Positions 6,178 to 7,059 of a stretch of DNA of 64,000 nt are shown one piece after another. The stretch is from Hypomesus transpacificus (taxonomy: Eukaryota; Chordata; Actinopteri; Osmeriformes; Osmeridae). The stretch covers positions 6,900,080 through 6,964,079 of the forward strand of contig NC_061071.1 of assembly GCF_021917145.1 (NCBI RefSeq), given 5' to 3'. A program made the position numbers and the translations under genes. The notes under the pieces are model-generated. The model was not told the origin of the DNA. It made no database searches and saw nothing but the letters and a program-made list of their open reading frames with translations. How positions within the stretch are numbered: the first letter of the stretch is position 1; every line of letters begins with the position of its first letter.

Positions 6178-7059
6178 ATGGCCCCCACTAAGAAGGGAGA
6201 GAAAAAGAAGGGGCGCTCAGCCATCAATGAAGTGGTGACCCGGGAGTACACCATCAACATCCACAAGCGCATCCATGGAGTGTGAGTGGAGAATGCACAG
6301 TAGATGGTGCTATGTGTTGAAAACGGCTACATGTCTACCTGCCTAAATGTAACCTGCCTCACACAGCCATCCTCACTTAGAAGACCAACCTTTCCTACTG
6401 TTGTTCTGTGCCTGTAGGGGTTTCAAGAGGAGAGCCCCTCGCGCTCTGAATGAGATCCGCAAGTTTGCCGTGAAAGAGATGGGAACCCCAGATGTACGCA
6501 TCGACACTCGTCTGAACAAGGCAGTGTGGACCAAAGGCATCAGGTAAGGACTCCTGATGCCTGATGTCACGCTTGCTGATGTCTGAGAAGTAGTGCTCCA
6601 CCTTGGTCTGGTTGTAGCGGGTGATGCCTGGCGGGATGGTGGGGTAGGACACCAGGCGCTCGATCCCAGCAGCCTTGAGGATGTAGGGAGCGTCACATGA
6701 GGAATAAAATATGCTGTTTAGATGTTAGTCCATTAGCTGGGCATTCATGGCAACATCTACACAAGTTGCTGCCACAGGAGATAACGTGCACTATATTCTT
6801 ATGTTGTCATTCAGGAATGTTCCGTACAGAATGCGTGTACGGTTGTCCAGGAAGCGCAATGAGGACGAGGACTCTCCTAACAAGCTGTACACTCTCGTCA
6901 CATATGTTCCTGTCACGACATACAAAGGTAAAGCAGTACTAACTCGAGATGACTTCATCAAAATTATTCATTTTGTTTGGGGTTGAAGACAAACTCTTGC
7001 TAAAACCTTTTTTTCCTCATCCTGCAGGGTTGCAGACAGTCAATGTGGATGAAAACTAA
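6178..7059 (+). CDS. rpl31: 60S ribosomal protein L31 (eL31)
   Basis: eL31 is a small basic protein of the large ribosomal subunit near the polypeptide exit tunnel. The coding exons are 6178-6281, 6418-6543, 6815-6927 and 7028-7059, totalling 375 bp (124 aa plus stop), the normal family length. The protein starts [20 protein letters not shown] and contains [25 protein letters not shown] and the end TVNVDEN. The ATG lies directly on the second exon. A non-coding first exon probably lies around 5472-5499, pyrimidine-rich as expected for a 5'-TOP ribosomal protein mRNA, with donor gtaagt at 5500. AATAAA at 7079-7084 is only 20 bp past the stop, so the 3' UTR is very short. Intron 3 (6544-6814) contains an inverted 136-bp copy of a chst10 exon segment, described separately. 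Confidence 0.97.
6559..6694 (-). repeat. Inverted 136-bp copy of a chst10 coding segment in rpl31 intron 3
   Basis: Base-by-base reading shows that 6559-6694 is the exact reverse complement of 11054-11189, inside the last chst10 coding exon, with no mismatch over 136 bp. The match stops sharply at both ends (next base a versus c on one side, t versus c on the other). It has no poly(A), no target duplication I can see and no splice junction, so it is not a processed retrocopy. On the minus strand it still reads as part of the sulfotransferase C-terminal region. A short cctgat repeat at the left junction hints at microhomology. Confidence 0.95.

Follow-up and report, generated by a model that had tools for sequence, protein, structure and literature searches.

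The second intron between coding exons of the ribosomal protein gene rpl31 contains a 136-bp inverted copy of coding sequence from chst10, a gene that lies downstream. The copy is best explained as a one-off templated insertion resembling class 2 templated sequence insertion polymorphisms (TSIPs), and it was most probably made by DNA polymerase template switching or by break repair. Support comes from the exactness of the inverted copy, its abrupt ends and the intact state of its donor. The copy itself, its uniqueness in the assembly, a stem and a repeated 7-mer at its left junction, and the lack of retrotransposition marks are observed directly. The locus was found in the window, a stretch of 64,000 nucleotides (C12:6900080-6964079) in an assembly of 437 Mb and 376 contigs, and involves the following features.

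6559 to 6694, minus strand: inserted 136-bp reverse-complement copy of chst10 in the rpl31 intron (direct comparison, BLAST and assembly search)
11054 to 11189, plus strand: donor, intact in-frame chst10 coding sequence (comparison, reading frame and domain match)
6178 to 7059, plus strand: rpl31 coding exons 6178-6281, 6418-6543, 6815-6927 and 7028-7059, giving a complete protein of 124 aa
10708 to 11260, plus strand: last coding exon of chst10, its start at an AG acceptor read by eye

Insert and donor match without a single difference. Direct comparison of 6559-6694 with the reverse complement of 11054-11189 gave 136/136 identities, and the match breaks at the next base on both sides, with no further similarity in the 59 flanking positions per side. 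Thus, the perfect 136-bp antisense copy of chst10 coding sequence that a first-pass annotation had reported is real in the sequence and abruptly bounded. Ungapped extension and BLAST drew the pair slightly longer, as 139 nt at 99% (6556-6694 and 11054-11192), and with an E value of 2.5e-65 for the pair in the within-window BLAST, the match is far above chance. The ends are ambiguous by a few bases, as the G at 6559 and the TC at 6693-6694 can be assigned to either side. The two inverted arms are spaced 4359 nt apart, such that the donor lies 4.4 kb (4.36 kb) downstream of the insert.

The host gene encodes a protein that matches Ribosomal_L31e (PF01198, E 1.4e-48; first 115 residues scanned). 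The host intron spans 6544-6814 (271 nt), begins with GTAAGG and ends with CAG; the insert starts after 15 intron bases, and the intron minus the insert amounts to 135 nt. The same annotation had placed the copy in rpl31 intron 3, and while the host gene was correct, the intron is the second between coding exons in the present model. The donor is located inside a Sulfotransfer_2 domain (PF03567, E 1.7e-44) of a sulfotransferase-type gene that we take to be chst10, an exact name partly carried over from that annotation. Because the open chst10 frame continues through the segment, chst10 was taken as the source and the rpl31 intron as the recipient.

The copied sequence is unique. A search of the whole 437-Mb assembly (query 6540-6720, E <= 1e-5) returned two candidates, both of which matched, and these were the insert site and the donor. 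A copy of a repeat family was therefore rejected, as the query matched only two places in the assembly. The same query found one insert-bearing intron, with query flanks of 19 and 26 bases that are too short to expose an empty allele on another contig. In 264 kb (the window and a 200-kb block of contig C1), 6559-6694/11054-11189 alone formed an inverted pair with a length of at least 40 bp, an identity of at least 95% and a sequence that occurred exactly twice in its block, when scanned with 20-base seeds, with the low-complexity filter on and with copies counted per block only. The 200-kb block of C1 gave one 42-bp inverted pair at 95%, present in about three copies. When the window was compared to itself, the sole other pair at 100% came from an LTR element, whose two 527-bp ends lie at 15999-16525 and 24206-24732.

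The left junction of the insert reads, in order, AGGCATCAGG-TAAGGACT-CCTGATGCCT-GATGTCAC, and two features overlap there.

6535 to 6562, plus strand: perfect 10-bp inverted repeat, AGGCATCAGG (6535-6544) and CCTGATGCCT (6553-6562), with an 8-nt loop
6553 to 6566, plus strand: tandem 7-mer CCTGATG CCTGATG (at 6553 and 6560) across the left junction

The 10-bp stem straddles both the left junction and the intron's 5' splice site. For 6526-6575 as single-stranded DNA, the predicted folding energy is -11.6 kcal/mol (z -4.14), a stability that none of 200 shuffles reached. Moreover, among 300000 junctions simulated from random flanks and inserts of the window and a 200-kb block of C1, 34 had a comparable stem (at least 10 bp, loop of 3-10 nt, junction crossed by 1-4 bases). 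The recipient holds about 7 of the 10 pairs if 6559 is counted with it, and the last 3 pairs arrive with the insert; given a preexisting 7-bp stem, the chance of 3 extra pairs is about 1/64, which is far weaker than 34/300000. The RNA hairpin modeled on one guessed empty site reaches -14.7 kcal/mol, close to the -17.5 kcal/mol obtained with the insert. The 7-mer is also present in inverted form, CATCAGG, at 6538 at the end of the rpl31 exon and at the donor end, 11182-11188. Among 200000 random pairs of a flank (30 nt) and an insert start (10 nt), 2710 had a 7-mer in common on either strand, and 35 had one on both, as is the case here; this puts the G at 6559 with the flank, which otherwise has six of the seven bases. 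All junction and hairpin controls were defined post hoc, with the features already seen.

A perfect match could also reflect an assembly error, in which a chimeric or misjoined read path placed a piece of chst10 in the intron. Such an error, however, needs two junctions 136 bp apart, and one of them would have to carry a junction-spanning stem seen in 34 of 300000 random junctions, within an anatomy of the repair type. Moreover, the same window resolves a minisatellite of 986 bp as well as an element of 8.7 kb whose two 527-bp ends are identical, and the assembly holds one insert-bearing intron. Misassembly looks quite unlikely.

The other end of the copied stretch falls in a second hairpin, on the donor side.

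11047 to 11061, plus strand: donor stem of 6 bp with a 3-nt loop, GGAGCG(GGA)CGCTCC

The copied stretch stops at 11054, inside the loop; for hairpins of this kind (6-bp stems, 3- to 4-nt loops), 0.3 to 0.5% of positions lie within or at the loop. The donor hairpin is modest (z -1.97), its fold being matched by 7 of 200 shuffles. Marks of retrotransposition were sought at the same ends. No target-site duplication (TSD) of at least 5 bp was found, the longest common word of the 25-nt flanks being 4 nt, and there is no poly(A) at the insert end, where the longest A/T run near the junctions is 2 (left) or 4 (right). A LINE-mediated retrocopy, or class 1 TSIP, was rejected on the lack of both marks. 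The first-pass annotation had likewise held that the copy is not a retrocopy, and the location of the donor within one exon agrees.

RNA might have served as the template if the intron broke and was patched with cDNA reverse-transcribed from a piece of chst10 mRNA. The donor lies entirely inside one transcribed exon, and the inserted strand, read in the rpl31 direction, is the cDNA strand. Moreover, RNA is the template favored for class 2 TSIPs in the available text of PMC5110952. The insert, however, carries neither an exon junction nor poly(A) and so has no pointer to RNA. Furthermore, an RNA acting in trans need not come from a neighbor gene 4.4 kb away, although nascent chst10 RNA would be nearby. 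The chance of a randomly placed donor being as near as 4.4 kb is about 2e-5, and this nearness argues for a local DNA template. We consider the RNA-templated patch unlikely.

How a DNA-templated insertion may have proceeded is suggested by the left junction. A 3' end may have halted near CTCCTGATG in the rpl31 intron during replication or break repair, and it probably folded back onto CATCAGG at the exon end and was extended by 2 to 3 bases (CC or CCT). Fold-back of CTCCTGATG on CATCAGG and addition of CC, then T, would give exactly the observed CTCCTGATGCCT. The new end, GATGCCT, would next have annealed 4.4 kb downstream at GACGCCT in the chst10 complement, where 6 of 7 bases match. Extension by about 130 bases would have ended in the small template hairpin, the end would have been rejoined to the rpl31 intron, and the copy would since have been a neutral passenger. 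The predicted empty site is ...GGTAAGGACTCCTGATG(TC)ACATGAGG..., and a fold-back followed by a jump predicts ancestral CTCCTGATG without the second CCTGATG, rather than CCTGATGCCTGATG.

Such a fold-back and jump would explain why the stem is longer and why the 7-mer is repeated in tandem. If synthesis had instead started by annealing in register at CCTGATG, a single 7-mer would be expected; two are seen, and this alternative fits less well. Taken strictly, only the G overlaps exactly at the left junction, or GCCT if fold-back is assumed, and under that assumption the microhomology is the 6 of 7 bases of GATGCCT/GACGCCT. The odds of templated insertion are independent of the fold-back substep. 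We infer the order of steps, the polymerase (a Pol theta-like enzyme or a replicative template switch), the setting in replication or break repair, the ancestral intron and the neutrality of the copy.

When the copy was made is only loosely bounded. Zero differences in 136 positions give a divergence of at most 2.2% (95% upper bound). At assumed mutation rates per site of 2e-9, 5e-9 and 1e-8, and with 136 sites in the intron and about 32 synonymous sites in the donor taken as free to change, the copy is no older than about 9, 3.6 and 1.8 million generations, respectively. A recent origin would fit the identity but does not follow from it, and gene conversion is unneeded. The first-pass annotation had read the perfect match as a very recent copying event, ongoing conversion or an assembly error; the copying event stands, but very recent origin and ongoing conversion were overstated, given the divergence that the data allow. 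Repeated gene conversion between the inverted arms could keep the pair at 100% identity despite one copy being intronic. The arms are short, however, and the absence of differences is compatible with up to about 2.2% divergence in any case, such that we regard conversion as very improbable.

The insert resembles events described in other systems. Class 2 TSIPs of the human germ line are defined in the available text of PMC5110952 by the absence of a TSD and poly(A), and each human individual carries on average 25 to 30 TSIPs. The rpl31 insert is likewise a copy of unique genomic sequence with the donor still present and intact, it has neither a TSD of at least 5 bp nor poly(A), and its size is within the 73- to 414-bp range of the experimentally induced insertions in that text. 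It differs in its donor, which at 4.4 kb is near instead of far, and in its host, a fish and not a human. Germ line templated insertions with microhomology or one-mismatch "microhomeology" are described in the accessible part of PMC8421209, with 103 and 99 calls of at least 25 bp in two human individuals. The MMBIR-linked MMB-TI of that source share with the rpl31 insert an inverted copy, palindromic surroundings and, if fold-back is assumed, a one-mismatch microhomology at the junction, but MMBSearch needs an inverted template within 100 bp for MMB-TI and the arms here are 4359 nt apart.

The proposed fold-back and jump follow the route described for stem-loop extension by Pol theta, where the new 3' end created by the extension pairs with a microhomology at another site and the product retains an inverted repeat (PMC11292364, in the portion available). 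A short inverted repeat spans the junction here too; it is 10 bp long, about 3 of its pairs would be new, and under the fold-back reading its last bases would match the next template. The rpl31 insert differs in being 136 nt long and in having a distant template, and the published support for the Pol theta case is biochemical, with purified enzyme. PMC8794818 also treats priming within one strand from a hairpin loop. A count for great apes gave 4017 significant template switch events, of which the best-supported (gold-standard) ones had a median length of 12 and a maximum of 128 nt (PMC7954356, available part). These short-range switches (PMC7954356 and PMC8794818) are alike in reverse-complement copying and in switch points at hairpin-prone sites, but they are local, and the 136-nt rpl31 insert is long compared to the maximum of 128. 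We conclude that the rpl31 insert adds a case to a known class; it is long for that class, and its junction can be read unusually well. It is a clean apparent case of template switching in the vertebrate germ line, with donor, junction stem and stopping hairpin all visible. Our literature search found no paper joining template switching, inverted duplication, hairpin, antisense and intron, and the papers naming both rpl31 and chst10 have titles unrelated to the locus.

Whether the copy does anything is a separate question. As rpl31 and chst10 are both read on the plus strand, the rpl31 intron RNA is complementary to chst10 mRNA, and the antisense relationship that the first-pass annotation had pointed out thus holds at the level of sequence. 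The insert could be a working antisense element in trans, in which the intron RNA would pair with chst10 mRNA and cause editing, silencing or nuclear retention. The complementarity is perfect over 136 nt, the computed duplex energy is -317 kcal/mol, and rpl31 is expected to be highly transcribed. Excised introns, however, are normally destroyed quickly in the nucleus, and the insert RNA has no special structure. A structured RNA in the insert was rejected: it folds no better than shuffles (z 0.03), and Rfam gave no match in the insert at the gathering threshold, its one match in the window being a LINE 3' element at 47386-47439. We hold a working antisense element to be very improbable. Equally remote is the idea that a one-step mutation made a perfect 136-nt trans-antisense to chst10 in a very actively transcribed neighbor and that the RNAs are edited or silenced, such that a repair scar would have become a regulatory link. 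If true, it would mean that such a scar creates antisense pairing of neighboring genes in one step. Most likely, the insert is an ordinary mutation scar that is unusually easy to read, and nothing seen demonstrates any activity.

Within the junction stem (6535-6562), the 8-nt loop exposes the 5' splice site of the host intron. The predicted mean unpaired probability of the site (-3 to +6) is 0.55 with the insert versus 0.21 or 0.55 for two guessed empty sites, and thus no clear prediction for splicing follows. Searches for relatives gave no match in PDB at E <= 0.01, and the chst10 exon had no relative in prokaryote and viral contig collections, as expected for such collections.

The window contains other repeats and genes. 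Between rpl31 and chst10, 7160-8050 has the inverted ends "agggctgcaac" and "gttgcagccct" and is presumably a hAT-like fragment. On the minus strand, 15999-24732 is an LTR retroelement with identical 527-bp LTRs (15999-16525 and 24206-24732) and open reading frames with protease, reverse transcriptase, RNase H and integrase domains. It is a young proviral insertion between genes, and no clean target-site duplication was recognized by eye. Three palindromic MITE-like repeat copies of about 200 to 230 bp (2172-2385, 40413-40647 and 54979-55206) are each largely their own reverse complement. An assembly gap of 100 N (35103-35202) lies immediately 3' of a 16-bp tandem array. A 986-bp minisatellite with a 14-bp unit (41305-42290) overlaps open frames of a gene that we take to be of the MAP4K4 kinase type. 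Finally, 60119-63914 holds a Regnase/ZC3H12-type gene with UBA_6 and Regnase_1_C domains.
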